A DNA stretch of 64,000 bases, from the NCBI GenBank assembly GCA_029168955.1, contig JAPDOI010000038.1, positions 2,569,001 to 2,633,000 on the forward strand, in the 5' to 3' direction. The position numbers were made by a program, and so were the translations under genes. Every line of letters begins with the position of its first letter. Positions within the stretch are counted from its first letter, which is position 1. The DNA comes from Aplectana chamaeleonis. Taxonomy: Eukaryota > Nematoda > Chromadorea > Rhabditida > Cosmocercidae. The notes below the pieces were generated by a model. The model made no database searches. It saw only the letters and a list, made by a program, of their open reading frames with translations, and was not told the DNA's origin. Below are positions 14,701 through 64,000 of the stretch, one piece after another.

Positions 14701-17700
14701 CATCCAGCCCTTAATTCTCAGTCTGGCATTTGTGAATAAAGTAGTACGGGACCAAAATTATTATAAAGCTCAACCCCTCCCCTTTCGACCTTCGTAAACA
14801 ATGTTCATGCTACCAAAGGGGTATGGTATACTTTTGCGACACACGGTCGCGTCGCTCTGCACAGCGACAGCGACCGCCTGTCACTCAGCTCCCGCCCTTC
14901 AAACCTGTGGCTGTCGCAGTGCACTGCACAGGAATGTAGGTATGGAGCTTCGCGAAGGAAAAAGCACGCCCACGCCGATCACTTTTTCCGCAGGGCTACC
15001 GTAACCATTCTTGAACAAAACATGATAACGAATGTAAACACACGCTCATAACATGCGGGGTATAAAAGAGCGGAGGAGCGGTATGCATTCATTCACACAC
15101 CGCTCTCCTCGAGAAGCCACTGGGAAGTGGCTGGTGAGGTCGAAATTGTGCAAACATGTTTGTTGGCTATTAAGATGTGCTCATAACCATGCTGACACTT
15201 GGAAAAATTTTAAAGGAGGGTTACGGTAGCCCTGCGGAAAAAATGATCGGCATGAGCGTGCTTGTCGCGAAGGATGGCTCATTCTCGTCACGGTTCTTTA
15301 AATTTCCAAGTTTTTACTTCGATTTTGTCAAATCTTCACGGCCGGTGGTGCTGTTTACCCACATCCTAGTCCAGGCAGGTCCTCAACTGCTGACCCTTAG
15401 AGAAAAACGGTGTGTGAATGAAGACACACCGCTCTACACTTCTTTTATAACCCTACTCTTTATCAAATGGTTATCAACAATTTTGTTAACGAGAGCCATC
15501 CTTCCAGAAGCTCCATACCTACATTCGCTGCGCAGAGACAGCGACAGTGGCGGCGACGGACTTCGATACATTTGCGGTATGTCAGCTCTCCGCGACACGT
15601 CGCTGGGACAGTAGGGTCAATGGTATTGATTGTCGCTGTCATGAGCGGCAGCCATCAAATTTAGCACAAATCGTGGTGGGACCAGCATCGGAGCAATGGC
15701 GCTGCCTGTCGTAGGAACAGTTGTCGCGTGTCCATCGCACCGACTTGTCGCGGAGGGCTAACATTCTGCAAGTGTGCCGATGCCTGTCGTTGCCACTGCC
15801 GCTGTCGCTGTACAGTGCCCTGCAACAGCGGCAGATTTGAAAGGCGGGGGCGGTCGCCGTCGCTGTGCCGAGTGACGCGACCGTGTGTAGCAAAGTATAC
15901 TATTGGCCTAACTATCCCTACGACGACCGATGCCGCTGCTCCGATGTGGGTCCCGCTGCAATTTCTGCTTGACTGCATGCCCGTCGTTCATGACAGCGAC
16001 AAAAACCCCTAATTGATAAAAGATAAGTTTGAAAAGAAGCGGAGAGCGGTGTTAATTCACGCACCGTCCTCCTGATCCTGAATGCCCGGCCCCTAATTAA
16101 TTTAAAGCCACGGGGGGGGGTTGTGGACTGAAAAAGACTTCTAATACGTGACGGTGTTGTCTTCCCAAGGTCCTCGCCAGAGTTGGCCGATCGGCCGAGT
16201 CCCACTTGGTCGATACGCACCTGCTGCCACTGCTCTCGGATTAGAGATGTTCGGCAATTGCCGCTTGGCGGCTGTTTATGAACGAATTTTGTTGATTGTC
16301 GTTTGCTATTTTCCCCCTCACTTCAGGGATCGTATTCGCCATCAACCCACCGGGGAGTCGAAGGGTAGATGAGGTGAGTTTTCAGTACAAAATGCGCGCT
16401 CCACGGCCACCTCTCGCCTCCCTTGGCTTCCCTCGCGACCGCCGGAATTTTTCGAATCGCATAGCTGAAGAATGGTCGCTTCGCGATGGAATCTTTATCT
16501 TTTCGCAGTGATATCGATACGTAACACAGCTTACATTTCCATCTTACTTGGTGTAAGATGGGTTGATCTGCTCTTCTGCCGCGCGCGGTATCATCCCTTT
16601 CGCTTCCCTTCGACTTCCCTCGGCGGGTTGTTGGCGAATACGACGCCTGGACAAAACGACTGCAGGCATTGTACTAATTCAAGTATGCGACCTGAGTCTT
16701 CTCGAATCAAACCCTCAAACTTATATAGTGCTTGCGGCAGATTTCCAGAATACGTGTACAACGGGTAACAACGCCCTCACCGGTACAACGTTCGTCGGGA
16801 AGTTGTCGCCGTACTTCATATCGCCCCACACGTCGTCGTAGATCTTAATTCCAGTAGGCGGTGGGCGGAGATTTCGGAACACGCCCATCATCTCCTGAGC
16901 TGGTCCACCCTCCACTTTTTCCGACTGTTTGTTGTAGCCCACTAGTCCAACTTCGGTGTTAAGATCGAGATAGCCGAGTCGCTGCTGGCCATCCTTACAC
17001 GGCATCAGAATGGGTGTCGATTGGCCACATCGGACCAGCTCACGATGAGCCTCACCAGCTAGACGGGTCTTGATCGGCAGCCACTCATACCTTCAAATCA
17101 TGCAGTCAGTGTGATTCAGTTTAGAACTAAGCAGTGCACATACCAGTATCCGAGCGAGTTGAAGTCGCCTTTATAGGTCAGGATCTGAATTTGACCACCA
17201 AGGTCTTTGGCACCGGTCAGTTCCGTCTTGTTGAACGGGAAGGAACACTCCACACCTCCATTGTTATTCCAGGCTCGACCATGAATTGGCTTTCCGTGTT
17301 TGTACCATAGCGCAACGTACATATTCTGCTGCCCCGGCACTCGGACCGGATTGTCGGGAAACGGCGCACCAATGGGCTGAAACTTCTGCAAGTTAGCACA
17401 TTGATCAGAGGGAAGCAGAGAAGCCTTCTGACCTGAAAGGCCCAAGTGTCTTCTTTGGCAGGCATTGAAGCTGAGGAGTAGTCGGATGGACTGTTCCGAC
17501 CTACTCATCTTCTGGGCTTATATACATCTCAGGAATGAAGTTATCGGTGCACCTTATATATGCAAATGATGAACTTGACTGTAGACTGTCAGGTGATAAC
17601 GATGAATTCATATCAGTGTTCTCACTGTCGCACAGAGAAGGCTAATGATCGTTCGCGGTCGACAACCCGTGGCCGTATTCATGAAGGCGCGGGCGCAGGA

Positions 17701-20700
17701 AGGGGGCGTAAACCTCTCATTTCCGGCTTATGGCAACCACTTTTGTGCCTACCCTGTCGAGATTTCAATCGTGGCGGCTCCTCTTCGCCACATGTGAGAG
17801 CAGAGACAGGCACGAGTAGCTGCCCTCAGATACGGAGAGGAGATCGCCGGGTAGGAGGCTGCTGTTTCTCATTTCCACTGTTAATGAAATCCGGCGGACA
17901 TAGCATACTCGACCCCAATTATGCGGGTTGACAGGCAAAGCGCGCGCTGCCTGCTAGGGAGATGGTGATCATTATGTGAAACATAAGATCGACGCAGCAG
18001 TCAGCCGCAACTTTCTCCATCCACCCGCTATATGTCTAGAAACCCTCCCATACCTCCGCCAGGTAGTTGGGAACCTTCCTGCCTGCCTACTGTGTACCCA
18101 GGAACGTGCAACATCGAAAACTCGTCCAACGCCGGATTGACTTTGGACCTTCCCGGAAGGCTTCCAGTCTTCATGTATGCAGCCACCGGTAATCAGTCAC
18201 AGGAGCCGGTGATTCGAATGTGAAAACAGACCAGGACCAATAAAGGTAACATAGAAGCGGGACACTTAAATTTTCCTTCGAGAGATAGGGATTCCTGCTA
18301 GAGCGTGATCTCGATGTGGGTGCAGAATTTTAATTCAATCGTCACCTTAATTACGTCAGTGTTCAGAACGCCGGCAGGGACGAAACTCGAATTCAATTCC
18401 TTAGAGGAATAAGAGAACTTGGACAGAACCACAACTTATCCGTAGCACTAAATATCAAGAACTCTGTAGATGATCAGTCGCGGAAATAATGTAGAGTCGC
18501 GGTGCCCTTTAGACTGATTCGCGCTCTTGCAGTACGACTCTCGATCAATTACTAGTTCATAACCAGCTTCAGTCATTGACTGTCTGGTTGTTGGCTACAG
18601 ATTGTCCTTGCACTTCTCTGGCACTGCTGTGAGGCGTTTTTGCTTTTATAGATGCTATCCCATACATGACTCCTGCTAGAAAGCTTGTTGAGACGCTTTT
18701 CTTCCGCAAGCGGCAGTCGTGAGCAGCATCATTTACAGCTGTGTGTCCGAGTAGTTTGGCTGGCAATAATCTGGAACCCTGCTGAATCTCACGCACTCGT
18801 AATCCTACTTCGCCAGAGAGCCGCAGTCTGCATCTAGGTAAATACAGGGTGCTTCGGGTGGAACCGAAGCTGTCCCGAACAAACCCTCACTGCGTTTTAA
18901 CAACTGTTTATGAACGATGTCGCGGGATGAAGGCGAAAGTTTCATATTTACAAAACCACTACTAGCAGAGCGGCGGCCCGGCGGAACACAACTGCGACTG
19001 TGTGAGTACGTCGGGGTTGAATTAGTTCCGCAGTGAGGGTCAGATCCAGAGTAAATGAGCTAGTCCGTTTACTTGGGCCTTTCAAGGTCAGTAATCTCAC
19101 GTCCATTTGGGCAGCATTCTAGACCATAGGACTGTTCTAACTACTTCGGGATTACCTTTAAAACCAGCACACACGCTCGCGAACGCATCTGAGATAACAC
19201 GTTCATAGAATCGTATGGCTCAGAACACAACGCCTACACATTTTGAAGCGCCGAAAACAACGCTTAATGCCGCTACACGAGTAAGAAGTTGACCCCGCCC
19301 TGGGTCTGCCCGCCCCTGTATTTGCCGTTCTCCTCCGAAACAGGTTGGCTGCGCCTCTCCCACCGTCGTCGATGTGTGTGGTTCACTTGTTGTACTTATT
19401 AAACCACCCACAAACGTCGCCGATGGTTTGAATGGACCAGCACCCTTATTTTGGAGGAGAACAGCAAATACAGGGAGTGGGCAGATACAGGGCGAGGCAA
19501 CTTCTAACTCGTGTTGCGGCATTCTGGGTCGTTTTTGGCGCTTCGAAATGCGTAGGCGTTGTGTTCTGAGCAGCACCATTCTATTTCCGTAGTTATCTCA
19601 GACACGTTCACGCGCGTGTATGCTGCCTTTGAATACAAGAGTGCGCGTGTACCAACTGAAAATTTCCCTATTTGAACATCGCCAAGACAGCATACCTTGT
19701 AAGCTGAAATATGTCGAGTAGTAAAATATATATATACTAGTGACCCTTCGGGTCCCTAGCCCGTGGCAGCCACGTTATTTGAAAGCGCGTGCCCCCTGGC
19801 AGTAATAGTTAGGGTTAGTTTCCGTTGAAGAAAAAGCTTCAGGCAACGTTAAGTAACGAAAAGTCTGCTTGAAAATGAAATCGTACCTACTGTGCTTCTC
19901 TGGGCCAAATTCCGGTCCGCAATTGCGCCTCGATACGCATTGCGGACGCGCGCTTTCGAGTCAAAAGAGTTTCCAGCGCCGCAGCCGCCGATCTGTTGAC
20001 TCTAGGTGGGTTTTAGAAACTGGAAAGTGAACAAAATTGGAGAAAACTATATAAAAAAGCCATGTCGAGTCCGCATTGGCGCTGGAAACTCGACTGACTC
20101 CAGCGCGTGTGGCCGCAAAGCGTGTCGAGACGCAATTGCGGACCGGAGTTTGGCCCAGGTAAGCACAGTATTGTAATACGAAGAAAAAGGTTGAAGGTAA
20201 CAATACCACTTTACAACAAAAGGAAGAACGTCTGTATACATAACGGCACCGCCAAACGATGGGTCGGCTTCACAGGTTACACTCAATAGTATTCGTTGGC
20301 TTGGGCCGGCTTGGCCAACCCCCTTCCACCATGTGCAGTGTTCGTTTGGCTTCGCAAAACGGAGGGCCGGCTTCGCCGACTCCATTCCATCAAGTGCAGT
20401 GTTCGTTTGGCTTCGCCAAACGAAGGGCCGGCTTCGCCCACCCCCTTCCCTCATCAGCAGTATTCGTTTGGCTTCGCCAAACAAAGGGCCAGTTTCGCCG
20501 ACCCCCTTCCATCATGTGCAGTGTTCGTTTGGCTTCGCCAAACGAAGGGCCGGCTTCGCCGACCCCCTTCCATCATGTGCAGTCTTCGTTTGGCTTCGCC
20601 GAACGAAGGGCCGGCTTCGCCGACCCCCTTCCCTCATGACCAGTATTCGTTTGGCTTCGCCAAACGAAGGGCCAGTTTCGCCGACCCCCCTCCATCATGG

Positions 20701-23700
20701 GCAGTGTTCGTTTGGCTTGGCCAAACGGAGGGCCGGCTTCGCCGACTCCCTTCCATCAGGTGCAGTATTCGTTTGGCTTCGCCAAACAAAGGGCCAGTTT
20801 CGCCGACCCCCTTCCATCATTCGCAGTATTCGTTTGGCTTCGCAAACAAAAGGCCGGCTTCGCCGGCCCCCCTCCATCATGTTCAATGTTCGTTTGGCTT
20901 CGCCAAACGAAGGGCCGGCTTCGCCGACTCCCTTCCATCAGGTGCAGTGTTCGTTTGGCTTCGCCAAACGAAGGGCCAGTTTCGCCGACCCCCTTCCATC
21001 ATGACCAGTATTCGTTTGGCTTCGCCAAACGGAGGGCCAGTTTCGCCGACCCCCTTCCATCATGTGCGGTGTTCGTTAGGCTCCGCCAAACGAAGGGCCA
21101 GTTTCGCCGACCCCCCTCCATCATGTGCGGTGTTCGTTAGGCTGCGCCAAACGAAGGGCCAGTTTCGCCGACCCCCCTCCATCATGGGCAGTATTCGTTT
21201 GGCTTCACCAAACGAAGGGCCAGTTTCGCCGACCCCCCTCCATCAGGTGCAGTATTCGTTTGGCTTTGCCAAACGAAGGGCCAGTTTCGCCGACCCCCCT
21301 CCATCATGGGCAGTGTTCGTTTGACTTGGCCAAACGGAGGGCCGGCTCCGCCGACCCCTTCCATCAGGTGCAGTGTTCGTTTGGCTTCGCCAAACGAAGG
21401 GCCAGTTTCGCCGACCCCCTTCCATCATTTGCAGTATTCGTTTGGCTTCGCCAAACGCATAGCCAGTTTCGCCGACCCCCCTCCATCATGTTCAGTGTTC
21501 GTTTGGCTTCGCCAAACGATGGGCGGGCTTTGCCGGCCACCCTCAATGTAGTATTCGTTTGGCTTCGCCGAACGAAGGGCCGGCTTCGCCGACCCCCCTC
21601 CATCATGGGCAGTGTTCGTTTGGCTTGGCCAAACGGAGGGCCGGCTTCGCCGACTCCCTTCCATCATGTGCGGTGTTCGTTAGGCTCCGCCAAACGAGGG
21701 GCCAGTTTCGCCGACCCCCCTCCATCATGGGCAGTATTCGTTTGGCTTCACCAAACGAAGGGCCAGTTTCGCCGACCCCCCTCCATCATGGGCAGTGTTC
21801 GTTTGGCTTCGCCAAACGAAGGGCCAGTTTCGCCGACCCCCCTCCATCATGGGCAGTGTTCGATTGGCTTGGCCAAACGGAGGGCCGGCTTCGCCGACTC
21901 CCTTCCATCAGGTGCAGTGTTCGTTTGGCTTCGCCAAACGAAGGGCCAGTTTCGCCGACCCCCTTCCATCATGAGCAGTGTTCGTTTGGCTTCGCAAACA
22001 AAAGGCTGGCTTCGCCGGCCCCCCTCCATCATGTTCAATGTTCGTTTGGCTTCGCCAAACGAAGGGCCGGCTTCGCCGACCCCCCTCCATCATGTGTCGC
22101 GATGCGCTTGTTTTACTACCGCGGGTCATCCCCGGGAGCGTGGGTAACCTTCCGTCCCCCGCGTGGCGGTCGCGGCGCTGCCACCGCGCCGCCATGTCCC
22201 GCCCCCGTGAACGTGCAGTCTTGCAGTCTCACCTCTGCTGCCAGTCGAGTCGGTGGCAGGCGGTGGCTAGTCCGCCGCGCAGTGATACCGGCGCGGGGCG
22301 GTTTTGCTCTGCGTCGGTTGAGCGCCGATGCCGACCGTCGTCAGTGGACGGCGAACGCACGGGGTATGGGAGCCGGACGAGGGATACTCACGTTACAGTG
22401 AGTCCTTGAGGGTCTTTCTTCTACTACGCGGGAGTTCAAATAATACACGAGCGATTAGGTTCTAATTAGGACAGTTCATCCCGACTCCTTTACCAACTAA
22501 TCTCATGCCGGTTCTAATACGCATCGATACGTTATACCGTTGTTCTTCTCCGTTATTGAGTTGGTTATATTTCTGTACCGGTTATTCCTATCGCCCACTT
22601 ACATTGATTATCTCACCTTATGCCTTGTTATGAATACCGGATAAAGGGATGAGTGAACAGAGTCTACCGTGCTTTGCCGGTTCTAACCGAGAGTATCGAT
22701 TATGATGTGTGATTATTGATTGACTATATATATTGTTGTGCCCACGTATCAATACGCGTAAAGTGAACGGTGCAACCGGGGCCAGGGAGTCCCCAATGCC
22801 AGTGTCAGGAACCAGAACCACCTTTGCAGATCGCGCCAACTCCCTAGGCAAGTTGGTCATGGGGTCATGCCCGGTTTGCCGCTAGAGAGATTGTGGGATC
22901 AATACGCCAAAGACCCATGACTAGGTAGCCCCTCCATCGTGTGCAGTGTTCGTTTGGCTTCGCCAAACAAAGGGCCGGCTTCGCCGACCCCCCTCCATCA
23001 TGAGCAGTGTTCATTTGGCTTCGCCAAACGCAGGGCCCGCTTCGCTGACCCCCTTCCAACATGTGCAGTGTTAGTTTGGCTCCGCCAAACGCAGAGCCAG
23101 CTTCGCCGACCCCCTTCCAACATGTGCAGTGTTAGTTTGGCTTCGCCAAACGAAGGGCCAGTTTCGCCGACCCCCTTTCATCGTGGGCAGTGTTCGTTTG
23201 GCTTCGCCAAACGAAGGGCCCGCTTCGCTGACCCCCCTCCATCATGAGCAGTGTTCATTTGGCTTCGTCAAACGCAGCGCCCGCTTCGCTGACCCCCTTC
23301 CAACATGTGCAGTGTTAGTTTGGCTTCGCCAAACGCAGAGCCAGCTTCGCCGACCCCCTTCCATCATATGCAGTCTTCGTTTGGCTTCGCCAAAAGAAGG
23401 GCCAGTTTCGCCGACCCCCCTCCATCGTGTGCAGTGTTCGTTTGGCTTCGCCAAACAAAGGGCCGGCTTCGCCGACCCCCCTCCATCATGAGCAGTGTTC
23501 ATTTGGCTTCGCCAAACGCAGGGCCCGCTTCGCTGACCCCCTTCCATCATGTGCAGTGTTCATTTGGCTTCGTCAAACGCAGCGCCCGCTTCGCCGACCC
23601 CCTTCCATCATGAGCAAGCTTCGTTTGGCTTCGCCAAACGCAGGGCCAGCTTCGCCAACCCCCTCCCATCATGAGCAGTATTAGTTTGGCTTCGCCAAAT

Positions 23701-26700
23701 GAAGGGTCGGCTTCGCCGACCCCCTTCCATCATAAGCAGTATTCGTTTGGCTTCGCCAAACAAAGAAAACCAAACGAATACTGCTCATGATGGAAGGGGG
23801 TAGGCGAAGCTGGCCCTGCGTTTGGCGAAGCCAAACGAACACTGCTCATGATGGAGGGGGGTCAGCGAAGCCAACCCTTCGTTTCTGCCCTTGATGGAAG
23901 GGGGTCGGCGAAACTGGCGCTTCGTTTGGCGAAGCCAAACGAACACTGCACATGATGGAAGGGGGTCAGCGAAGCTGGCCCTGCGTTTGGCGAAGCCAAA
24001 CGAACACTGCTCATGATGGAGGGGGGTCGGCGAAGCCAACCCTTCGTTTCTGCCCATGATGAAAGGGGGTCAGCGAAACTGGCCCTTCGTTTGGCGAATC
24101 CAAACGAACACTGCTCATGATGGAAGGGGGTAGGCGAAGTTATTCTGCGTTTGGCGAAGCCAAACGAATACTGCTCATAATGGAAGGGGTCGGCGAAGTC
24201 GGCCCTTCGTCTGGCGAGGCCATGAGCTTTGGGGTAAACCACCAAACCTGCCAAACAAGACAGGATCCTTGAGCCATCGTAATTATAAAACTTCGGACCA
24301 AATTGTGTTATTCGAAAATTATGCTAATGATTTTTCGAATTTCGAATCATTCAAAATTCGAAAATTTTGGTTCTAGAATAACATTCGAAACTTTAAATTT
24401 GAAAAAAGATTTTTGAATGTATTCGAAAATTGGAAATTCGAAAAATTTCATCGGTTTGCCCAAGTATGGTAATTATTGATCTTTAGCGGATTTCATGATT
24501 TTGCGAATTCAGTCTTTTCTTGCAGAAAAAAATTACTGTGGTTTCGCTACACTACAAAAAGTTGACTAAAGAATTCAAATTATTAATTGAACAAATATTT
24601 CCGCATTCTCGAGTTATATTTTTTCAATCCCGTAGTCAACTTTTTTTCACACTGAAAATATTGATTTTACTATTATCACAATCATAGGATTTTCAAATTT
24701 TTTAGAAGATGAAATTAGCTTTCGCTAACTGTTTAATTAAGTTTTTTTTCCATTTGATGAAAAAAAACAAGAGTTGAGACAATTAAAAAATTTTTAAACA
24801 GTTAACAAAATCTAATTTCGCCTATGAAAAAAAAAATGAAAACCTTATACTCATCGCCAAATCAATAATTTTCAGTTTAAAAATAGTTTACTGTCGGCAT
24901 AAAATTCTAAACATACGAATACGGAAATAGTTGCTAAATCACTAATTTCTTGGAGCAGTAATGGAGTCAAAACCTTTTTTCCGTCAGCAGAACTGCGAAA
25001 CTATTACTAATACAAACACTAATGCAAAACCGAAGTCGAAAACCACAGGCAACAACATAAAACAAAAAAAAAGACAGAAGAGCGAAGAAAATCAAAAAAA
25101 AAATCCCAGCGATCAGCTGAGATGATGACTGTGCGGAACAGCGCCGCACAGTCCAGGAGCCACAGGCTGAGCATTTACGCATGCTCTCGCCATCTGCGCC
25201 CTCTTCCCTCACCCCACTCACTCCTAATTACCCTCCGTCTGCCGTGCCCCTCCGCACACTTTTGATAACTACGTATTTTTGAAGCGTGTTTCTTTCCATT
25301 CTTTATTATTATGATTTATTACATAGGCAAGCCTATGTAGTCTAAAACAATGTTCAAAATGACCGCGAAATACGAATGAACCATAGGAAGTTTAAAGCAT
25401 GGAAACTAGAAAAAAAAACAACATAGCGGAACAGCAGAGAAAAGCGCATTGCTGTAATAATTATCACATAAAAAAAAAACTGGTGCATCCATTCTGCACA
25501 AACGTAAGAACGTTGTGTCAAGTTACGGACGACAAACGCTAGTTGTAATTGCGAATTTTTTAAAATGATTTTTCAAAAGAAAATGCTTCCAGATTCTTGC
25601 GTGATGAAGTCGACCGTGATTAACACGTCCAAGGAAATGACCGCGTACTCGGACTTCCCCCCAGACGACAGTATGGCCAACTTCATGCACAACACTGAGA
25701 TGTATCGGTGGGATCTATAATCTATTACCTCCAGAAGGAGGACGTAACACATCGTATTCTCTTCAGATACCTCATGTCGTACGCGGATCATTATGACCTA
25801 AAGAAGTACATCAAGTTTAACCACAAGGTGCTCAACATTGAACGGGCCAGCAACTATAAGAAGTCGGGGCAGTGGACTGTAACGTATGAAGACGAGTGAG
25901 TTGAGTAAATAGGTTTAGTAGGCCACGAGCGTGGTAACAACTTGCCAGTTTCCAGGTCCGGAGCCAGAAAGGCAGACGTATTCGACGGAGTTCTGCTGTG
26001 TTGTGGACATCACGCCTTGCCACGAATGCCATCACCATGGCCCGGCCAGGAAACCTTCAAAGGCAGGATACTCCATTCGCATAGTTATAGAAGTGACAAA
26101 GGTTGGTAATATGAGTTACTGATTTCAAATCCGGTCAACATAGATTATCTGTCGTATAGTGCATCCGCAGCTTATAAAACTTGGAGCATTAATCCACTAT
26201 CTGAATATATCTTTGCTTGAACATAGGGTACGAAGACAAGACTGTAGTGGTTGTTGGTGTCGGCAACTCAGGTGGCGATCTAGCTGTCGAACTCAGCAGG
26301 ACTGCTAAGCAGGTAACGAATCGGATGAACCTTTAGTTATACACCGTCGAAGAGCTGTGCGGGCACATTCAATGTTTTGAGGCATTCCAAAAGGAACCGG
26401 CTGTACGGGGAATATGCGGAGGGAAGCCGCAACAAGCCCATATGCACGTCGCCGCATCTCGCGGGACCTACCCTATCGGAAATTTTCTAACTTTCACGGG
26501 CTGATAAGTTGCTGGGTTAAGATTTCTTATACACCATAACATTAGCTTAGGCATTGAGTAACAATGAGAAATGTACTAGAATAAGAGAGGTTTTCTGCAA
26601 CAATTCAATGATGGAGGAAGACAAGATCAATAGAATCACACTAGCGAGACCTAGCAAAGTTTTCGCTCAAGAAAAATTCCACGTGCGCTAGCTTCCTGAG

Positions 26701-29700
26701 GCAGATTATTCTGACAAAACGGTTCTCTGGTTCTCTGGATATGGCGTGTACGCCAGATCGCACAATCCACACGGCAAACTGCGTCGGTATCATCGAAAGA
26801 TGTAGTCATTCTGCCGGTGTTGAACTAGAGCCTGGATCATGTGAGGCAGTACTTATCGTCAATCACTGGATAGGGGGAAGCCGCGACGCTGCTTGTCGGG
26901 GAAACGTGCGCGCGGTCAAACGAAGAGAGGATGGCTATTGATCTAATGATTTTGCGCTTGATTTTTGGGGACGGCTGCCTTCTTGATAGACACTGACGAT
27001 ACAATGCTACAACCTTGTGATTTCTATTGGCTATTTCTGCTTCAAAAGACCGTGAACTTTTAGACATACCTAGTTACTCGACGCGGTACATGGGTTTGCA
27101 ATAGAATCTTCGACTACGGCGAACCATTCGACATGGCACTTAATAGGTTAGTCCTTTAGTCTAGAAAAAAAGTTTGAACACTTGATTCCACCATAGATAT
27201 GAGTATCTAATACAGTAATTCGCAATAATTCGTTCACCTAACCTGTTCAAGCCGCTAATACTCGGGCCGCTGCATGATTTCATGCTTCTCGTCCCCGATC
27301 AATAGTTGCGCTATCGGATTTCCGTCAAACGGGCCAGAGTCAGACAACGAAGTATGGTACTGTGGCGACACGTCTCCACCGCCCCTGTAATGTGTGCTGG
27401 CCCGTGCAAAAACAGCAAACTTGCTGATGGATGATTAGGCCGGTATGGGTTTGTTTTAATTGAGTGTTTGGAACGATCAGTACCCGCGGATCTGCTGGGA
27501 CTTCCATAGCTAATGCTTTGAAATAAAAAAAGGAGACTGATTTATAACAATTCATGACTAACGAAGAATAAAGAGTATGACAACGCCTCGCATAATCTGT
27601 TGCGAGTGAACGAAATGCGCCCTAACGGGTATTAGTTGCTTAGTAGTTTGGGGACGAGGTGTCCAGACACCATCAGTCAAGAGCTTTTTCATAGCGGTTA
27701 CTAACAGCAGACTTTTCCACTTCATAATGATCAGTTTGAAGGAAATACCTGGAAGACATGCGTAGTGTCACACCCGACTGGATTGTTAACACCCTTGTGG
27801 AGAGCAAGCTCAACAAACGGTTCGACCATGAACGATACGGTTTGAAGCCGAAGCACAGAATTTTCGGGTGAGTGCTGTCGAGAGATGAATAATCCACAAT
27901 CGAAATCGTTGTTCGTTTTCAGTGCGCATCCAACAGTGAACGACGAGTTGCCTAATCGAATTGCATGTGGCACAGTTCGTGTGAAGCCGAACATTCGCGA
28001 ATTCACGGCACACGATGTCATTTTTGAGGACGGCTCTCGGGTGGAAAATGTTGACGAGGTGGGTATGCTTTCCGTTTTCGATTTAGTCTAGGGCATGGAC
28101 CAGGCAGCTCGCCGTGCGGGGTTGGCGGCCTCACTGGAGAATGGGGTTTCGATTCTACCATCGCAGTCCCGTCCATTCATCAGACTATAATTATTACGCG
28201 AACTCTACATAGCGGTGAGAACTTCAAGCAGAAGTGACGGAAAATCTTGCGTTTTGATTCAGGTAGTTCTGGCCACTGGCTTTGAATTCCATTTTCCAAT
28301 GGTGGAAGGAGGAAAACTGATTCCTGTACATGAGAACTGTGTTGAACTTTACGAATACGTGTTTCCAGTGGAGACAGCCGATCACAACTCTCTCGCAATC
28401 ATTGGACTTATTCAGGTCGAGTTTTGGCAGACCGAAACCCCACCTTAGCCAAAGATTGCAATTCACTAATTTCAGCCAGTCGGATCAATTATGCCAATTG
28501 CGGAGATGCAGGCCAGACTATTCTATGAAAACCTCTTGGGAACGCACAGGATCCCTTCCACAGAGGAGGTTGTAGTCTCAAGAATATGACGGGACAACCT
28601 CGAAATAATGTTGAGTAGTTCAGATGAAGAAGTCGATCCAGGAGAAGAGGGAGGCAATGGCGGCTCGATATGTGAAGAGCCCTAGACATACCATTCAGGT
28701 GGAGATCGCTTCTAGCATCTGTTTTCAGATGGATTCCATTGACCCAGATTTTTAGGTCGACTACATATCGTACATGGAAGAGTTGGCTAATTTGGTTGGT
28801 TGTAAACCAAACATCGTTCAACTTTTGAAGGAGGATCCAAAATTAGCCATACAGGTTTGCCTTATGGGCCGAGGGCCTGCACGATTGGGTTTGATGATGA
28901 GCCACCGTTCACCTTAGTTCTGGCAATCGGATTTTAAACCTGTTCTCTGAGAGAAATTGCCGCTGTGGCTCCGCGACAGTGCCGCTCCGGTGCCTAAAGG
29001 CGCCGAAGCGACACTATCGCGCTAGCCGTGCCGGCACTACCGCGCAGCCGCAGCGGAACTACCGCGGAGCCGTAGCGGCAATGCGGTGGAGCCGCTTCGG
29101 CTCCACGATAGTGTCGCAGCGAAGAATGATATTACAACTAAAGGGGCCTAAAAACAAAAACACGCGCCTGCGGTTGCTACGTCCTCTGTCGAATAGGGAC
29201 AGAGGCTACCGCCGCTTTTGCACCCATGGAAATACGGAATGTACCTCAAACTTGGGTAATTGAACCGGAGACAATTTCGTTTTACCACACAGGATAATAC
29301 ATCGTACTCCACGCGGGTTCACTGCTGCATTCTCGCGGAGACGGCGCAGTTCTAACGCAGAGCCGCTGCGGTACTATCGCTGCACAGTCGAGGGTCGCGG
29401 TACTTTCCCGGCACTGACGCGACAAATTTTCTCAGTTTTAGTCCATTCGAACTGATAACTTGAAGAGTGGTACATCTAGGCAAGTGAACTTCACCGACGA
29501 AACGACATGCACACGGGAAGTGATTAAAGTGGTTAATTTTCTATTCCTACTGAGCAAAAAGTTAAAGACAAATTTAATCGTTACCAACACATGAAAGTTA
29601 CCAAAGAAAATAGGATAACAGCAACAAGATTTGTCTGGAGTTAACTATTGGATAACAATCCATTCGTTATTATTATCAAACTCTCCAAAGTCTGTACATA

Positions 29701-35314: not shown

Positions 35315-35810
35315 GGTCAGTATTGCCACCGCAACGACTGCCGCATGCCGCATTTCATCAGCTGCACGCGGCCCCACCTTCGAATACTTGTCCATACTCG
35401 CCTTGTGTTACGTCGCTCACGCTGCTGTCGCAGCAGCAACTCGTGTGGTCCTTCTGTCTCCGAGAGTGAGTTTCGAGAATCCCCAACGTCGATGTCGTCG
35501 TCCTGAAATACTATTAAAGCCGGTGTTTCTCAGGATTGGAGTCAATGCTCACGATGAAAATAGCCTTTAGTTCTAACCAGAAATCGAAAGATCCGGGGCT
35601 CATTGTGAAAATGGTTAAAACTGTTGAAAACTAGCAATAAACCCAAAATTCGGTATGGAACTCCCATCCGTCTCACTTCTTTAATGATCAAAGAGAAAGT
35701 GGGCGGGGCGGGACGCCGCATTAAAGAATTGGGTCCCTACAGGACTCATGGTGACTCGTTTTCGCCGTTTTTTTATATTGTTGCTAGGATATTTTATATT
35801 GTTGCTAGGA

Positions 35811-37107
35811 TATCAAGCACCACAGTCCCGATTTTCAAGAAGAAAGGGAGTCCTGCTGACTGTTGCAACTACCGGCCCATCCGACTTCTTAGTCATACAA
35901 TGAAGATTTTCGAGAGGATTCTGGAGAGAAGAATTCGTGGTGGCGTTGAGCTGAGCGTAAATCAGTGTGGTTTTGTCAGGAACTGCGGCACCGTCGATGC
36001 TATCCATGCGACCCGACTTCTTGTGGAAAAGCATCGTGAAAAGGGAGAAGCTGTTCACCTCGCCTTTCTTGATCTTGAGAAAGCGTTCGACAGAGTCCCT
36101 CACGAAGTAATATGGTACGCTCTGCGTAGCCGAGATGTCCCCGACGAATTGATCGATTGGGTGAAGCTTTTGTACGTGGACACGTCAAGTTGCATACGAT
36201 GCGCGGCAGGAACATCAAGGCCTTTTCGAATCACTGTTGGAGTCCATCAAGGCTCCCCCCTCCCCCCGCTGCTTTTCATCGTCGTCATGGATGTCATCAC
36301 GCGAGATTTGCAGAGTTCAGCACCTTGGACACTGTTGTATGCTGACGACGTGATGCTCGCCTCAGACAGCAAAGGAAACCTCCAAGCACAAGTTCAAGCT
36401 TGGCACGACAGACTGGCAGCATTCGGCTTACGACTCAATAAAAGAAAACCGAATACATGACAAATGCGAGTTGTGACGGTTCCATCCAAGTCGACAACAC
36501 AGTCTTGCCAAAAGCGCATACGTTTCGATATCTTGGATCAACGCTTTGCGATGATGGGACGCTGACGGCTGAAGTCGACGCACGCATCAATGCTGCTCGG
36601 TTGAAGTGGCGTACTGCGAGTGGAGTGCTCTGTGATAAAAAGGTTTGCGACAGGCTCAAGTCAAAGATTTATCGTTCGGTTGTGAGGCCCGTCGCACTGT
36701 ATGGCACAGAGTGTTATCCAATGACCAAGGAAGCAGAACGACGGCTAGGCGTGATGGAAACGAAGATGCTCAGGTGGAGTGGTGGATTGACCCGATTGGA
36801 CCGAGTTCGGAATGAAGATGTGCGTGAAAGATTCGGTGTCGCGTCCATTTCGGACAAACTTCGCGAAAATCGCCTAAGATGGTATGGGCACGTTCTGCGA
36901 GCTGGAGAACACTCGATAGCGAAAGCGGCTATGCAGCTCCAAGTGACGGGCCAGCGACCAAGAGGACGACCTAAGCAGAGATGGCTGGATGTTTTGCACA
37001 ACGATATGAAAATTGCAGGCCCACATCCTGACAATGCGAATGACAAGGTCAAATGGCGGCAACGTTCGAGAAAAGCGGACCCTGCTACAATGTGGGACAA
37101 ACGCTGA
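35811..37107 (+). pseudogene. RTE-type non-LTR retrotransposon reverse transcriptase, 5'-truncated and frameshifted
   Basis: Homology starts near TTVPIFKKKG (35818) and runs through YRPIRLLSHTMKIFERIL, the LDLEKAFDRVPHE block with its catalytic Asp, HQGSPL, and the catalytic YADD box near 36338-36349. A one-base indel near 36440 moves the frame within the LNxKKTEYM block; the second frame (36457-37107) continues through FRYLGS, VRPVALYGTECYPMT and LRWYGHVLR to a TGA. The endonuclease domain is absent, as expected of a 5'-truncated insertion. The ORF preceding 35811 is not RT-like and includes a 21 bp direct repeat (TTTATATTGTTGCTAGGATA) at 35773-35814. Strand and family are well supported; the exact 5' breakpoint is not. 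Confidence 0.88.
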
Positions 37108-51183: not shown

Positions 51184-51581
51184 CTCAGAAAAATAAAAAC
51201 AAGTTACTTGTAACATAAAAGACCGAAAACAAGTTACTTGTAACATTTCTGAGCCGATGTAAGTTACTTGCAACTTTTCTCAGGTCATTTAAGTTACATG
51301 AAACATATCGACTGGATACAGCTTGCGATGCGCCTCCGATATGTTACATATATCTTAAAGGACCTGATATAAGTCGCAAGTAACTTACATCGGCTCAGAT
51401 ATGTTACAAGTAACTTGTTTCGATTTCTGAGAGGACACTGTTTCAGTGCTCTTCCGTTAAGTTGCATGTTACTTAAATGGCACAATATAAGTTGCAAGTA
51501 ACATAAATCGGCCGAGAAGATATTTCCAAGGGGAATGTGCGACGCGTTCGCGGGGTCAGGCTTACGACTGGCGTTGATGTT

Positions 51582-51670
51582 GGTTCAATTACCCAAGTTT
51601 GAGGTATTTGACCCCACATCAGCAGGGAAGGCCCGCACAATATTTTTTTGCGTAGTGTGTGGTCTGGGGC
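51582..51670 (+). ncRNA. SL1-like spliced-leader RNA-like unit (best copy)
   Basis: 51582-51603 matches the 22 nt SL1 leader at 21 positions (GGTTCAATTACCCAAG then TTTGAG; C for T at position 4), followed by GTA as a splice donor. TCAATTACC of the leader can pair with GGTATTTGA just downstream at 8 of 9 positions, as in stem I of SL RNA. CAATATTTTTTTGC at about 51638-51651 could be an Sm-binding tract. Similarity to SL RNA architecture is inference; no promoter element was identified. Confidence 0.5.
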
Positions 51671-51845
51671 GCGCTCTCTGCTTCGCGTGTCGTCTGCATC
51701 ACGTGATGGCCGCCCATATTGAAAATATAAATGTAAGTTACATGTAAAATAAGTGTAACTTACATGCAATATAAATTCAAGTTACATGTAATATAAATGT
51801 ATGTTAAATGTAATATAAATGTGAGTTACTTGAGGCATTCTAGTA

Positions 51846-52078
51846 CCCTCTGGTTCCGGGCCTGATTTAGTGTGTGCAATTGCGGACTTGCGTCGTAAGG
51901 GCGCGACTCATCGCTTTCGTACGATCAAAGAACTAGGAAAAACCTTGAAAATGTAGAAAAACACGCACACGAACAGTTGATGAGGGGCGGGCGCGGAAGC
52001 TCCTACGAAAGCGATGCGTCGCGCCCCACGACGCAAGTCCGCAAATGCACACACTAAATAAGGCCTGGAACCAGAGGA
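51846..52078. mobile_element. Element with CCCTCTGGTTCC ends nested in the 51.2 kb foldback
   Basis: TA-flanked. Arms GTGTGCAATTGCGGACTTGC and inverse; the arms also share CATCGCTTTCGTA / TACGAAAGCGATG. Confidence 0.65.
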
Positions 52079-52198
52079 TAAGTTACATTTTTATTACAAG
52101 TAACTTGTTTGATTATTCTGAGTATAATATCAAAAAATACCCCTGACGTCGGACTGTGCCTTTGAATGCACAGTCCAACCTCAAAAACATTTTTCTGC

Positions 52199-54812: not shown

Positions 54813-56869
54813 GCTCGATTCAACAAAACGGTAGTCGATAAAAAAATTTTTCGGGTCATCTGCTACCTCAAGAAACAATGAAGAACTTTTCGTCGCATTT
54901 ACTTGCACTTTTTCGACCTATAATTATGCGTGATTGTTACCAGAGTGAGTTTTTTTTTGGCAAGGCTTCCAAATCGTCATAAAAATGCAAATAGTGTTTA
55001 TTTTTCAAATAAAGAAAACTTCTTTAGTCTTCTATAATGAAATATAGGATACAACAATGAACACATGAAAGCAAGCGAGGAAAGTGGTGACGAAATTTCG
55101 AAATCGAAAAAAATTCAAACTTTGGCGTGGAATGAATGAGGTTGTACGTAATGTATGAGAATGAAGAACGACGGAGGCAACGCTGCCACTCTGCGAGGCA
55201 TCGAACTGCGCCGCCGCGTCAGGTTTTGGCCACGCCCCGATCATGTCGCTCGGCGGCGTGCCGCCGGGCGGCGCAACTCTGCATAGCTCTTTACTCGGGA
55301 AGCTAAAATTATGTAGGTGCACCGAGTTTGCGCCAACGTTCAACAGTGAACGCGAAGTCTTTTCACGATCCATGGCGACGTTAGTGCTTTAGGAGTACCC
55401 GTAAGATTACCGATTAGAAATACAAGGCTACATGGGTAGTCCGGCAGCTTCTCTAGTGAGCATTGCTAATAAGGAAATAAATCAGTCCCCCTAGAGTGTT
55501 GGCGCCCTAAGGCCGTCATCCTTAATTCTCATTTCTAAGGAAAAATAAACAAACTTAAGAAAATATTAGCATTCTCGCGACTGCAAGGAGAGATTGACAT
55601 TCTGAGCAAGGTCTTTTTTCTGATTGAGATTGGAAGGAAATGAGTGCATAATGAGGCACGTGTTCCGATTTAATCACTTTTTTCAGCCAAGCTCTGCCCT
55701 ACGAGTTCGCTTATGTAATCCACGCAAACTTTTTTCTAGAAAACCTCAAGCTGATTAATTAAGAAGGTTGAAATAAGGATGTTGAAGAGATTTCATTTAC
55801 GTAAGAAAAGCCTCATAAGAACTTAGAATAAAACGATTGCAAATTATGACTAATTACAGAAATTTAAGCTCTTGAAAAGAGTTTCTGTTGCTTGTCGTAA
55901 AAATGGAAGAATAAAAACTAAATTGAAAAAATATTTGAAATACGAATAAGGTAGTGAGGTGTACCACAACGAGGCGAGTATTCGGGAAATTAATGCAGGG
56001 ACGATTCTTAGGTGCCTACGGAAGTATTCCAATTAGAATGACACTAATGCGAGTCTTCGCTCGCTGCATAGCATTTGATCATCCACGTCATTGCTAGTAG
56101 GTAACTAATCGTCAAGCATTACCACGCGAAAACGAAACGGATTCCGATTATTTGCAAATTTTACTTCTTTTATCCGACTTCTAGAAAATGCGAAAGTTCA
56201 AAAAATTGAAAAAAGGTGAAACCAGATATCGACATTATGAAGGTCGTTAAAATATAAATTTTAACAGGAGTCACATGTAACTCGATTAAGCTTCACATCT
56301 CATCGACTGATCAAATCACTACCCGATTGAAAAAGGTCGACTCCGCTGGAATCGATTGAAACTATCATTCGAAAAGCGTGATTTTTGGATAAGTCCAAAA
56401 GGCGATCATTCGAAAACGTCTGTTTTTTTGACTTATTCGAGATGTCGAATATTTAAGAAACGCGATTTCCGTATAAGTCGAAAGGCCGATTATTTGAAAA
56501 AGATAGTAATTTGCCCAGGTTTAGTATATAGTATACTCTGACCGAATCAAATTATTAGAATGTTCATTCGACTAAAAAAGTCGAGTTCGAAAAAATTGAA
56601 AGTGTCAATTCCCGACTAATCCGAAAGACCGAATATTCAAAAAAAGGCAATTCTCGAATTGTTCTAAAAGAGCCGATTCCCGAAAAATTCAAAAAACCGA
56701 ATATCCCAAAAAAATCAGAAAATGTAAAAGTATAGTTCATAGTACTGTTACACTACGGCGAACAAAATGTGTTTTGCAACATGTTCCCTCTGAACTGCAC
56801 GTTTTTGCATGTTGACATCACAGTTCATAACAATTACGGGTGATGGAAGCCGGTACTCTAAGAACTTTG
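54813..56869. other. AT-rich intergenic sequence
   Basis: A half CGGCATGGATC hairpin at 55311-55383 and a TTCGAA-rich block 56325-56730. No gene seen. Confidence 0.4.
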
Positions 56870-57022
56870 ACCGAAAAAACAGCCGCGAAATAGCCGCGAA
56901 ATGTCTTCGTCCCGCGTAATAGCTGCGAAATAGCCGCCAAATAATGCTCGCCGCGGAATAGCCAAGAATTATGCTCTCCAAGTAGGTACACGACGCGTGA
57001 TTTAGTTGTCAACACCTCCGTC

Positions 57023-57047
57023 GGTTCAATTACCCAAATTTAAGGTA
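57023..57047 (+). ncRNA. SL1-like sequence, diverged
   Basis: GGTTCAATTACCCAAATTTAAG then GTA in the first module; three differences from SL1. Confidence 0.4.
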
Positions 57048-57280
57048 TGTCGAACCTCGCTTAGCCAATCAAGGTCCCGCCCAACCGCTTGCGGCACCGC
57101 ATAGCGGATATTTATCGGTTCTCTGAAAAGTAGCCGCGAAATGTCTGCTTGCCGCGTAATAGCCGCGAAATAACCGAGAAATAGCCGCTAAATTATTCTC
57201 GCCGAGAAATAATGCTCATGCTCCCCAGGCAGATTCTCGGCGCATTTCAGAGAAATGATTCAGATGTCAGCACCTCCGTC

Positions 57281-57305
57281 GGTTCAATTACCCAAGCTTG
57301 AGGTA
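57281..57305 (+). ncRNA. SL1-like sequence
   Basis: GGTTCAATTACCCAAGCTTG then AG and GTA in the second module; two differences from SL1. Confidence 0.45.
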
Positions 57306-57560
57306 TATGGACCTCGTTCAACCTCTGGAGACCCCGCTCGACCGCTGGCGACCCCAGATGGTGGCTCGGCGAGCCGGTGACATTTGCGTCTCGGTTAATT
57401 TGTTTACTCCCAAATCTTTCTCGTTTATATCTCGGCTATTTCTCGGCTTCTTCTTGTCCATTCCGTGAGAAGTCGAGAAATAGCCCGGAAATAGCCCCGC
57501 AGGAGCCGCTGCGGAGTTTAGTGGGGTGTTTCGCAGCTACTCCTCGGCCCAAATTCTAAG

Positions 57561-58182
57561 AGTGAACATTGGATCCGATTTGGAGGATTTTGGATATTTA
57601 TCCAAATGGTTGGACATCTAGACGACTTAATATCCGATTAACAAAAAAAACGACAAATCCGAACCGGACCGAAATCCAAATGATAGAAAATGAATCGAGT
57701 CCTAATCAAATTCTGAATCACCGAAAACGCTGAATCCGAATCGAGTCGTTATTCGATTCATTGGAAAAAAGACAGACAGACAGAAATTAGAAACCGGACA
57801 AAGGACACGTTAAAGCGCGGAATATACGAGGTAAAACTACTCTGGGTTGACGTAGTGTTACTCCGCTATTCGTCTAAACTTATAATCATTTCAAAAATCG
57901 GCCTATTCAAAGAAGAAAAGAAGAGGCAGTCCAAAGAAACAAGCTTGAAGAAGTCTCTCGCAAAAGGAAGGTTGGAATGCCTAGAATGAGTTGGCCTTCA
58001 CTCTAAGAAGGAATGGTGGGAAACTCTCAGGCTATTGTTAGATTCAGAAGGCCTTTAAATCGAGGAAAAAGATTCGCGAAGCTTTCAGCACTCTTTGAAT
58101 GCTCCCTGGCCCAGCGGGATGAAACGTTCTGGATCGAATAATGAGGTTGGGTTGTACCGTTGTTTCGTGGGGTTATTTTTCT
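57561..58182. other. Unassigned sequence with ATCCGAAT-rich start
   Basis: 57570-57760 is rich in ATCCGAAT/GAATCG motifs like the other TTCGAA blocks. The rest is unrecognised. Confidence 0.4.
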
Positions 58183-59706: not shown

Positions 59707-60279
59707 CTCTGAGGGAAATCGCCGCTGCGGCTCCGCGATAGTGCCTCTTCGGAGCCTACACGCACCTTAGCGGCACTATCGCGGAGCCGCGGCGGCACTA
59801 CCGCAAAGTCGTAGCGGAAACGCGGCAGTGCCACTGCGGCTCCGAGATAGTGCCGCCCCGGCTCCGGGAGATTATTTCATACGATGTTAATCAAGAAATA
59901 CTTGGGGGGCTAAGAACAAAAATACGTCCCTGCAATTGTTACGTCCTCTGTCTGATAAGGGCAAAGGTTACCGCCGCTTTTACGCTTAAGGAAATATGGA
60001 ATGTACCTGAAACCTGGGTAATTGAACCGGCGACAATTTCGTTTTACCACACAGGACAACAGTATGTACATCGTTTTCCCTGCGGGTTCGCATCCACGCG
60101 GAGCCAGCGCGATTTTAACGCGGCACCGCTGCAGCTAATATCGATGCCATGTCGACGCTCAAGGCGCGACAACATAAGCGTCTAATCACGGAGCCGCTGC
60201 GATACTATTGCGGAACTATCGCGGCATAGTCGGTGATCGCGGTACTTTCCCGGCACTGACGCTGCAATACCTCTCAGAG
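59707..60279. mobile_element. GC-rich element carrying an SL1-like sequence, copy 2
   Basis: TA-flanked, ends CTCTGAGGGAAATCGCCGC and CCTCTCAGAG; collinear with 28945-29434 through the centre. Confidence 0.7.
60004..60028 (-). ncRNA. SL1-like sequence, diverged
   Basis: Minus strand GGTTCAATTACCCAGGTTTC then AG and GTA; three differences from SL1. Downstream GTACATTCCATATTTCC matches the 29.2 kb copy. Confidence 0.4.
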
Positions 60280-62730: not shown

Positions 62731-63438
62731 CTCAGAAAAATCAAAACAAGTTACTTGTAACATAAAAGGCTGAAAACAAGTTACTTGTAACATATCTGAG
62801 CCGATGTAAGTTACTTGGGACTTATCTCAGGTCATTTAAGTTACATGTAACACATCGACGGGATACTGCGTGCGGTGCGCATCCGATATGTTACATGTAT
62901 CTTAAATGGCCTGAGATAAGTCGCAAGTAACTTACATCGCTCAGATATGTCACAAGTACCTTGTTTTCAATTTCTGAGAGGATACTGTGTGCAGTGCAAC
63001 TCCGATATGTTACATGTAACTTATATGGCTCAATATAAGTCGCAAGTAACTTAAATCGGCAGAAAAGATATTTCCAAGCGGGATGTACAACGCACTCGCG
63101 GGGTCATGCTTACGACTGGCGTTGCTGTTGGTTCAATTACCCAAGATTGAGGTACTTGACGCCACACCAGCAGGGAAGGCCCCGCACAGCTTTTTTTTTG
63201 CTTAGTGTGTGGTCTGGGACGCGCGCTCTGCGTCGCGTGTCGTCTGCGTCACGTGATGGCCACCCATAGTAAAAATATAAATGTAAGTTACATGTAACAT
63301 AAGTGTAACTTACATGCAATATAAATTTAAGTTACATGTAATATAAATGTATGTTACATGTAATATAAATGTAAGTTACTTGAGACATTCAAGTAAGTTA
63401 CATTTATATTACAAGTAACTTGTTTTGATTTTTCTGAG
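62731..63438. mobile_element. GTTACTTGTAAC foldback carrying an SL1-like sequence, copy 2
   Basis: 708 bp between TA dinucleotides (62729-62730 and 63439-63440); ends CTCAGAAAAATC and GATTTTTCTGAG. Confidence 0.8.
63130..63218 (+). ncRNA. SL1-like spliced-leader RNA-like unit
   Basis: GGTTCAATTACCCAAGATTG then AG and GTA; two differences from SL1. Downstream collinear with the 51.6 kb unit (CAGCAGGGAAGGCCC), with CAGCTTTTTTTTTGC at the Sm-like position. Confidence 0.45.
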
Positions 63439-63582: not shown

Positions 63583-64000
63583 CTCAGAAAAATCAAAACA
63601 AATTACTTGTAATATAAATGTAGCTTACTTGAATGTCTCAAGTAACTTACATTTATATTACATGTAACATACATTTATACTACATGTAACTCAAATTTAT
63701 ATTACATGTAAGTTACACTTTATGTTACATGTAACTTACATTTATGTTTTCACTTTATGTGGTCATCAAGTGACGCAGAGAGCGGGTCCTAGACCACCCA
63801 CTATGCAATAAAAGCTGTGCGAAGCCCTTCCTGCTGGTTTGGGGTCAAGTACCTCAAAGTTGGGTAATTGAACCAACAGCGACACCAATCGTAAGCCTGA
63901 CCCCGCTGGTGCGTCGTACATCCCCTTAGGGAATATTTTCTTTTCCGATTAATGTTACTTGCGACTTATATGAGCTATGCAAGTAACATGTAACATATCG
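63583..64000. mobile_element. GTTACTTGTAAC foldback, copy 3, cut by the window end
   Basis: Starts CTCAGAAAAATCAAAAC; arm and centre inverted relative to copies 1 and 2. Confidence 0.75.
63786..63874 (-). ncRNA. SL1-like spliced-leader RNA-like unit
   Basis: Leader at 63874-63853 (GGTTCAATTACCCAACTTTG then AG), GTA at 63852-63850; two differences from SL1. Downstream CAGCAGGAAGGGC and AGCTTTTATTGC occupy the positions seen in the other two copies of this family. Confidence 0.45.

Follow-up and report, generated by a model that had tools for sequence, protein, structure and literature searches.

Spliced-leader (SL) genes are regarded as lying in tandem arrays or at a few dispersed loci. The locus at 51582 raises the question of what an SL1-like leader with its splice donor represents in the core of a transposon: a working gene, passive cargo, a start module of the element or a copy of an RNA. 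Seven such leaders lie in the window, the whole 64,000-nt stretch of DNA analysed. The reading favoured here, which as a whole is probably correct, is that the elements concerned (families F1, F2 and F3) form a related group of non-autonomous elements with terminal inverted repeats and foldback-like arms, that they captured an SL1 gene, and that its promoter would still have a role in them.

Leader copies in the window

A script search of the 64,000 nt locates seven copies of GGTTCAATTACCCAAGTTTGAG|GTA with 0-2 changes per 25 bases. Their 5′ ends are at 51582, 57023, 57281 and 63130 on the plus strand (0, 2, 1 and 1 mismatches to GGTTCAATTACCCAAGTTTGAGGTA, respectively) and at 29266, 60028 and 63874 on the minus strand (0, 2 and 1). 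These are not chance resemblances, since the second-ranked site in the window has 8 mismatches; reversed-pattern controls in the genome all gave 0. As in an SL1 RNA gene, each 22-nt leader is followed by a GT donor; an RNA starting at the leader would begin with GGTTCAATTACCC. Canonical SL1 is given as GGTTTAATTACCCAAGTTTGAG for Haemonchus (PMC7652881). The leaders of the window copies share one departure from SL1, at position 5, where GGTTT becomes GGTTC. A first-pass annotation had listed the same seven copies, with GTA after the leader (present in 7/7) and with central positions in at least three repeat families, all of which holds: the leaders sit in the cores of F1, F2 and F3. The shared change, which it called T4C, is instead T5C, and it is common to all seven window copies but not to all copies genome-wide, where T5 copies exist in F1 and F2. 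The GGTTCAA in the leader resembles a B box. A tRNA-type promoter was considered and rejected, because the −44 element is common to SL1 and U2 genes and no tRNA is present in the window.

Structure of the elements

Elements of all three families end in inverted repeats, and tandem units of 11 or 22 bp are found in their arms. Copy a of F1 (51184..52122, plus strand) has terminal inverted repeats CTCAGAAAAAT... with TA at both flanks, and its arms are built of 11/22-bp tandem units. Its leader with GTA occupies 51582..51606 (leader 51582-51603) with 0 mismatches to the C5 25-mer. A PSE-like TGCGACGCG precedes it at 51538..51546 (−44, 2 mismatches to TACGACGCA), and a non-canonical T-rich tract, AATATTTTTTTG, follows at 51639..51650, near the place of the SL1 Sm site. 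Another inverted-repeat element is nested in this copy at about 51846-52078; taken as 51844-52080 it has CCCTCTGGTTCC ends with TA on both sides, and it is absent from copy b. F1 copy b (62731..63438, plus strand, TA at both flanks) has its leader with GTA at 63130..63154 (1 mismatch, position 17) and the PSE-like TACAACGCA at 63086..63094 (−44, 1 mismatch). The elements with leaders at 51582 and 63130 are copies of one family with 90% identity across 670 bp. F1 copy c (63583..64000, minus strand) runs past the end of the window; its leader with GTA is at 63850..63874 (1 mismatch, position 16) and TACGACGCA itself is at 63910..63918 (−44, 0 mismatches).

The F2 element (56856..57562, plus strand) has tips CTCTAAGAACTTTGACCGA and CTCTTAGAATTTGGGCCGA, flanks TA and TG, and two leader units that arose as a tandem duplication within it. 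Unit a has its leader with GTA at 57023..57047 (2 mismatches, positions 16 and 20) and its best PSE-like match at 56989-56997 (−34, 2 mismatches); unit b has them at 57281..57305 (1 mismatch, position 17) and, as CTCGGCGCA, at 57236-57244 (−45, 3 mismatches). Both F3 elements are on the minus strand. Copy a (59707..60279) has tips CTCTGAG... and TA at both flanks, with leader and GTA at 60004..60028 (2 mismatches, positions 15 and 20) and the best PSE-like match, AACGATGTA, at 60067-60075 (−47, 3 mismatches). Copy b (28945..29435) has decayed ends, leader and GTA at 29242..29266 (0 mismatches) and the PSE-like TACGATGTA at 29298..29306 (−40, 2 mismatches).

The prevailing tips are CTCAGAAAAAT for F1, CTCTGAGAGTTTTG for F2 and CTCTGAGAGAATTT for F3. 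Among copies fetched from the genome, tips are present at both ends in 25/31 F1, 12/28 F2 and 2/4 F3. Equal 2-bp flanks border at least 13 of the 25 two-tipped F1 copies (TA, TT or AA), 9 of 12 in F2 (TA or AA) and neither of the two in F3. Inverted terminal repeats with a short target duplication, the marks of class II non-autonomous elements, are present; no transposase was identified in F1-F3 and no autonomous partner was found. Across families little can be aligned beyond the promoter element, leader and donor, apart from AGGCCCCGC, which F1 and F2 share. The sequence after the leader is GTACTTGACCCC in F1 and GTACTTGGACC in F2.

The window has other content. Exons of the sperm-motility gene MFP2b (PF12150) lie at 16721-17517, with closest relatives in Parelaphostrongylus (83%), Dictyocaulus (82%) and Ancylostoma (82%). 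At 35609-37107 a reverse transcriptase open frame, closest to Heligmosomoides and Haemonchus (71%), is followed by an overlapping second frame, with about 70% identity to Heligmosomoides copies. By these relatives the host is a strongylid-like nematode. A long tandem array of 61-bp units at 20303-24222 (about 29 and 14 copies) has GGCTTCGCCAAACGAA and then the opposite orientation.

Copies in the genome

The genome searched comprises 1,036,593,504 bases in 2087 contigs and holds thousands of copies of the leader with its donor: 13,827 sites are within 3 mismatches of the C5 25-mer (reversed control 0), a count that takes in T5 copies and can include SL1 plus GT sites of other element classes. 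The exact C5 25-mer occurs at 1413 sites (reversed control 0) and the exact SL1 22-mer at 1024, of which 469 continue with GTA (reversed controls 0). The fetched copies have T5 in 3/34 F1, 12/30 F2 and 0/6 F3, counts that are not frequencies because T5 and C5 copies came from separate searches. By eye, the C5 places examined (30 + 20, one incomplete) resemble F1-F3 cores; automatic sorting left one of the C5 copies, L070, outside these families. The 30 T5 places with GTA divide equally into 15 F1/F2 cores and 15 other elements. A transposon-derived leader array at C1:5168532-5170379 (L065-L069) consists of five exact F1-type leader cores on one strand at about 370-bp or double spacing. Leader scans of viral and prokaryote contigs gave 0 matches.

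Genuine SL1 genes and the promoter element

Three full-length matches to the SL1 model RF00198 were found in the genome, at 45.6-50 bits and all below the cut-off of 75; they set the number of genuine SL1 genes at three or more, from 50 scored among 256,011 first-look candidates. Each of the three (L109, L110 and L111) is followed, about 290 bp on and in the same orientation, by a 5S rRNA gene; SL1-5S linkage is known in C. elegans, with the opposite orientation (PMC11822377). Their RNA runs from SL1 through GTACTTTCAAG... and AAATTTTGG (AAATTTTGT in L111) to the 3′ stem, and the donor GTACTT is common to them and to the F1 and F2 consensuses. At −45 they carry TACGACGCA (L110, L111) or TATGACGCG (L109). 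U2 loci have TACGARGCG at −44 in four of the five read, the fifth having CACGATGCG there; the five were drawn from 36 matches, and three of the four lie on one contig and are not independent.

A check for a PSE, proposed with the first-pass annotation, turned up a PSE-type element upstream of the leaders at nearly the same distance as in the host SL1 and U2 genes. It stands at −44/−45 in the F1 and F2 consensuses and at −40 in F3, 4-5 bp closer to the leader. TACGACGCA is found with at most 2 mismatches at −52..−28 in 32/34 F1, 24/30 F2 and 4/6 F3 copies, and in none at the control slot −90..−66 (background about 0.02 per slot). The fixed distance of an snRNA-type element is a property of the F1 and F2 consensuses; the window copies vary, and two of the seven, both F1, have the element at −44 with at most 1 mismatch.

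The 60 bp upstream of L110 read GGATACGACGCACTTTCCAGCCATGACTTAGGAGTCAAC..., and the counterparts are ATACGGAGCATTCCAGAGGCATGATTCAGATGTCAGCACCTCCGTC in the F2 consensus, GTACGACGCACT in F1 and GTACGATGTACT in F3. The F2 consensus matches L110 across 48 columns (equalled by 0/1000 shuffles) and F1 matches it over TACGACGCACT (p 0.005); the F3 match is weak (p 0.07). The diverged L109 upstream region matches F2 (p 0.004) and shows no match to F1 or F3 (p 0.33 and 0.66). Downstream bodies can barely be aligned to SL1 (against L110/L109, p 0.42/0.085 for F1 and 0.41/0.19 for F2), and F3 has a stem resembling the SL1 3′ stem (p 0.02 against L110, 0.03 against L109). Cross-family alignment of the decayed window copies gave no signal (p 0.10-0.87); the common upstream element surfaced once family consensuses were compared (p 0.008-0.03 depending on word length, 120 shuffles) and then again in the genuine SL1 and U2 genes, and a downstream word in the consensus comparison reached p 0.03 at one word length and 0.10-0.12 at others. 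Scanned as a whole with Rfam, the window had no SL1 hit up to E 5. When a single copy of each family was scanned by itself, the scores were 21.4 (F1), 15.8 (F2) and 14.4 bits (F3), below the cut-off of 75, with SL1 E-values of 0.054, 0.95 and 1.9.

Since the PSE-type element is present with the leader, we conclude that, as far as sequence can tell, the two arrived together and that gene DNA, not RNA, was captured. That the F1-F3 cores derive from the start of an SL1 RNA gene, promoter included, is well supported on these grounds. Their description as SL1-gene units on mobile elements is upheld by promoter, leader and donor, and T4C as a diagnostic variant is not supported. The common core would comprise a PSE-type promoter at about −45, the start site, the 22-nt leader, the GT donor and a diverged gene body. 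In better-preserved copies the promoter may still recruit the snRNA-type Pol II machinery, and the RNA would begin at the first G of the leader; promoter competence of the cores is likely in part. The SL sequence of Ascaris has reportedly been found to be an internal promoter element. Source copies would retain the core, the promoter/start module mattering to the element and possibly to an autonomous partner, an argument built on consensuses of copies mostly chosen for an exact leader.

Leader conservation and decay

The 7 leader changes among the window copies are confined to positions 15-20 (p ~5e-5 if uniform, ~9e-4 for any six-position run), and the remaining 19 positions are unchanged, where flank divergence would predict 14.7 changes. 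Such a pattern fits selection on the stem as opposed to the loop, yet this was rejected on the genome counts, which are alike at stem, loop and donor: against 1413 exact copies, single-site variants number 90 at stem position 11, 93 at loop position 16 and 137 at the donor G. These were counted at three of the 25 positions, the donor-G variant being the C5 22-mer with A, C or T in place of the G and the two bases after the changed base left free. The exact share, 1413/13,827 (T5 counted as mismatched), points to some 2-3 changes per 25 bases, and the mean flank divergence of fetched exact-leader copies is 7-12%. Changes per copy being close to flank divergence, we estimate that individual copies decay much as their flanks do, nearly neutrally at the counted sites, and that what is kept is the family consensus. 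Neutral drift of the leader, which had been named as evidence against SL genes in these elements, therefore largely describes the single copies at the three counted sites, but not the consensuses, which keep leader, donor and promoter element.

This decay is also what would be seen if one or a few captures of an SL1 gene had left a leader without a role in the element, the consensuses looking intact merely from youth or from exchange with real SL1 genes. The near-equal variant counts at stem position 11 and loop position 16 agree with such passive cargo, and non-autonomous elements require no promoter of their own. Against it, between families little aligns except the promoter element, leader and donor, and the AGGCCCCGC of F1 and F2. 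Passive carriage is a serious contender, with somewhat less than an even chance.

Exact SL1 in other element classes

Exact SL1 sequences also lie inside LTR-like repeats, in the pairs L096/L097, L098/L099 and L101/L102, whose members are 10-12.5 kb apart, and L007/L008, 1.4 kb apart. A PBS-like TGGTGCATCGG occurs 84-106 nt past the first base of the leader in L007, L096, L098 and L102. L096 and L098 have DUF1759, which is taken here to be the Bel/Pao gag domain. A second group, L014/L027, L016/L023/L028 and L019, is retrotransposon-like and starts exactly at SL1, with unrelated upstream flanks and no visible LTR; GTA follows SL1 in these copies, which were selected for it. Downstream identity is 97% for L014/L027, 98-99% for L016/L023/L028 and 67% between L019 and L014. 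An endonuclease domain is above cut-off in L014 and L019, below it in L022 and absent from L016.

SL1 leader and GT could be imagined as a portable first exon or start module used by several element classes, whose RNAs would open with SL1 without trans-splicing and may be cis-spliced from its donor. Exact SL1 in LTRs (four of them with the PBS-like sequence) and at the first base of retrotransposons would suit this, as would GT next to the leader in 11/20 copies chosen for having no GTA, some of which are LTR partners and not independent. A PSE-like element is found, however, in only 4 of 42 loci not sorted into F1-F3, all 4 resembling unsorted F1-F3 copies, and where GT is missing, trans-splicing followed by reverse transcription could explain how SL1 was acquired. 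A general start module is possible but rather unlikely. The related proposal of the SL1 gene start as a portable promoter/first-exon cassette, taken up with its snRNA promoter element by thousands of inverted-repeat DNA elements and, as a leader that often has a GT donor, at presumptive start sites of LTR and other retrotransposons, is put forward tentatively and is a shade more doubtful still. If it were true, element RNAs would start with SL1 and might be mistaken for trans-spliced mRNAs, and as sources of SL1-headed RNA the DNA elements could exceed the genuine SL1 genes (at least three) in number.

Predicted fold, Sm site and use of the leader

When the first 40 or 60 nt are folded, stem I, in which the leader pairs with the donor side, is predicted for 3/3 F1 and 2/2 F2 window copies; it is also predicted for the consensuses of both families. 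In each of these copies it does better than controls (p 0.009-0.037 against shuffled tails, 0.008-0.073 against random window tails). Neither F3 window copy has it in the 40- or 60-nt prediction, where it is no better than controls (p 0.30-0.75), and F1 copy c (63874) adopts a different predicted fold with 125 nt. The pairing described by the first-pass annotation is in this way borne out for F1 and F2 and not for F3. When the three F1 copies were run through RNAalifold, no pair showed changes on both sides. According to the Rfam SL1 model line, as read, position 5 is opposite G29, so that C5 would give C-G where the model has U.G. C5 is not accounted for by the host's own SL1 genes, because position 29 is T there and the outer part of stem I is absent from the predicted fold of the genuine L109 and L110.

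An Sm site is reportedly required for SL RNA function. The strict patterns applied,.{40,55}AC?T{4,6}G and.{40,55}[AG]T{4,6}[AG], are nematode Sm patterns as used by SLIDR (PMC7986045). They fit 3/3 genuine SL1 genes, compared with 2/34 F1, 0/30 F2 and 0/6 F3 cores (2/70 in all) and 0/7 window copies; at random places they fit 29 and 89 of 2000. The cores as a class lack an Sm site 40-55 nt past the donor, and the proposed check of Sm conservation went against them. Looser tracts are frequent. AT4-9G occurs 30-60 nt past the leader in 17/34 F1 copies (random 47/2000), and AT4-6G occurs 61-110 nt past it in 23/30 F2 and 3/6 F3 copies (random 86/2000). F1 has a longer T tract near the Sm place and F2 has AATTTTG further down, the tracts starting in the consensuses at about +62 (F1), +117 (F2) and +107 (F3). 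The T-rich, Sm-like tract noted earlier is real as a feature of F1, some 40 nt past the donor, but no window copy fits the Sm patterns. With the Sm site altered or displaced, element RNAs would mostly be inefficient SL donors.

If C5 RNAs had been spliced to mRNAs and then reverse-transcribed, C5 leaders joined to other sequence should exist. Such cases were looked for among the 137 C5 22-mers that have A, C or T next to them: of the 100 listed, the first 20 are all F1-F3 cores (12, 5 and 3) with the donor changed or lost, and in none of the 20 is the leader joined to other RNA. This gives use of C5 as a donor no support and is weak evidence against it. T5 copies are indistinguishable from true SL1 by leader alone. 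SL-donor activity of the cores is unsupported.

Mobile working SL genes, whose RNAs would be assembled with Sm proteins and trans-spliced to mRNAs, would enlarge the host SL1 pool (T5 copies) or supply a C5 leader. The promoter element at snRNA spacing, the intact leader and donor, stem I in F1 and F2 and the AT4-9G and AT4-6G tracts of F1 and F2 are all what such genes would have. The strict Sm sites present in every genuine gene and in hardly any core, the 20/20 sampled C5 leaders without a following G that proved to be decayed cores, and the like drift of counted leader and donor sites make working genes improbable. That the cores are SL RNA retrocopies inserted in repeats, offered earlier as an alternative, would explain why leader and donor stay together, but is very improbable indeed, because the cores include promoter sequence, which is untranscribed, and have family-specific flanks within inverted-repeat elements, many of which are bordered by equal 2-bp sequences.

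Comparison with known systems

Under the favoured reading, transposons have raised the start of a captured SL1 gene, together with a promoter element that U2 genes also have, to thousands of copies. If a few copies were active, leader pool, operon processing and transposon expression would be linked, for which no report was found in open-licence PMC papers; nor did these yield a report of an SL gene inside an inverted-repeat DNA element. The elements offer a natural test of which SL gene parts are necessary. They also carry a warning, as SL-gene finders that rely on leader and GT would report element copies by the thousand in such genomes.

The F1-F3 cores resemble the 5S-linked nematode SL1 RNA gene (RF00198) in the leader (21/22 or 22/22), the GT donor, the PSE-like element at about −45 and, in F1 and F2, stem I. 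They differ from it in lying inside mobile elements, in an Sm site and body that are not conserved, and in scoring 14-21 bits (three window copies) where host SL1 genes score 45.6-50 against a cut-off of 75. SINEs derived from RNA genes (tRNA, 5S, U1) are retrotransposons that took core and promoter from a host small-RNA gene. F1-F3 have likewise drawn core and promoter from such a gene, but they are DNA elements with inverted repeats, and their promoter element is of the Pol II snRNA type. Retroposed genes of dinoflagellates are said to carry relict spliced leaders derived from trans-spliced mRNA; these too are SL sequences in genomic copies, whereas F1-F3 have a promoter and donor as well.

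Some mRNA of Cer1, an LTR retrotransposon of C. elegans, begins with SL1 (PMC3315495). Cer1 acquires SL1 through trans-splicing, according to that source, in contrast to the LTR copies here, which have SL1 in the LTR DNA. The Tm1 Mutator/Foldback elements of root-knot nematodes are non-autonomous and of inverted-repeat type; their arms are composite repeats, and some have a histone-hairpin motif in the core (PMC3169594). No SL gene was seen described for Tm1. F1-F3 are like Tm1 in being non-autonomous inverted-repeat nematode elements with composite arms; Tm1 has 9-bp target duplications (PMC3169594), whereas F1-F3 have 2-bp flanks and carry an SL1 promoter and leader.
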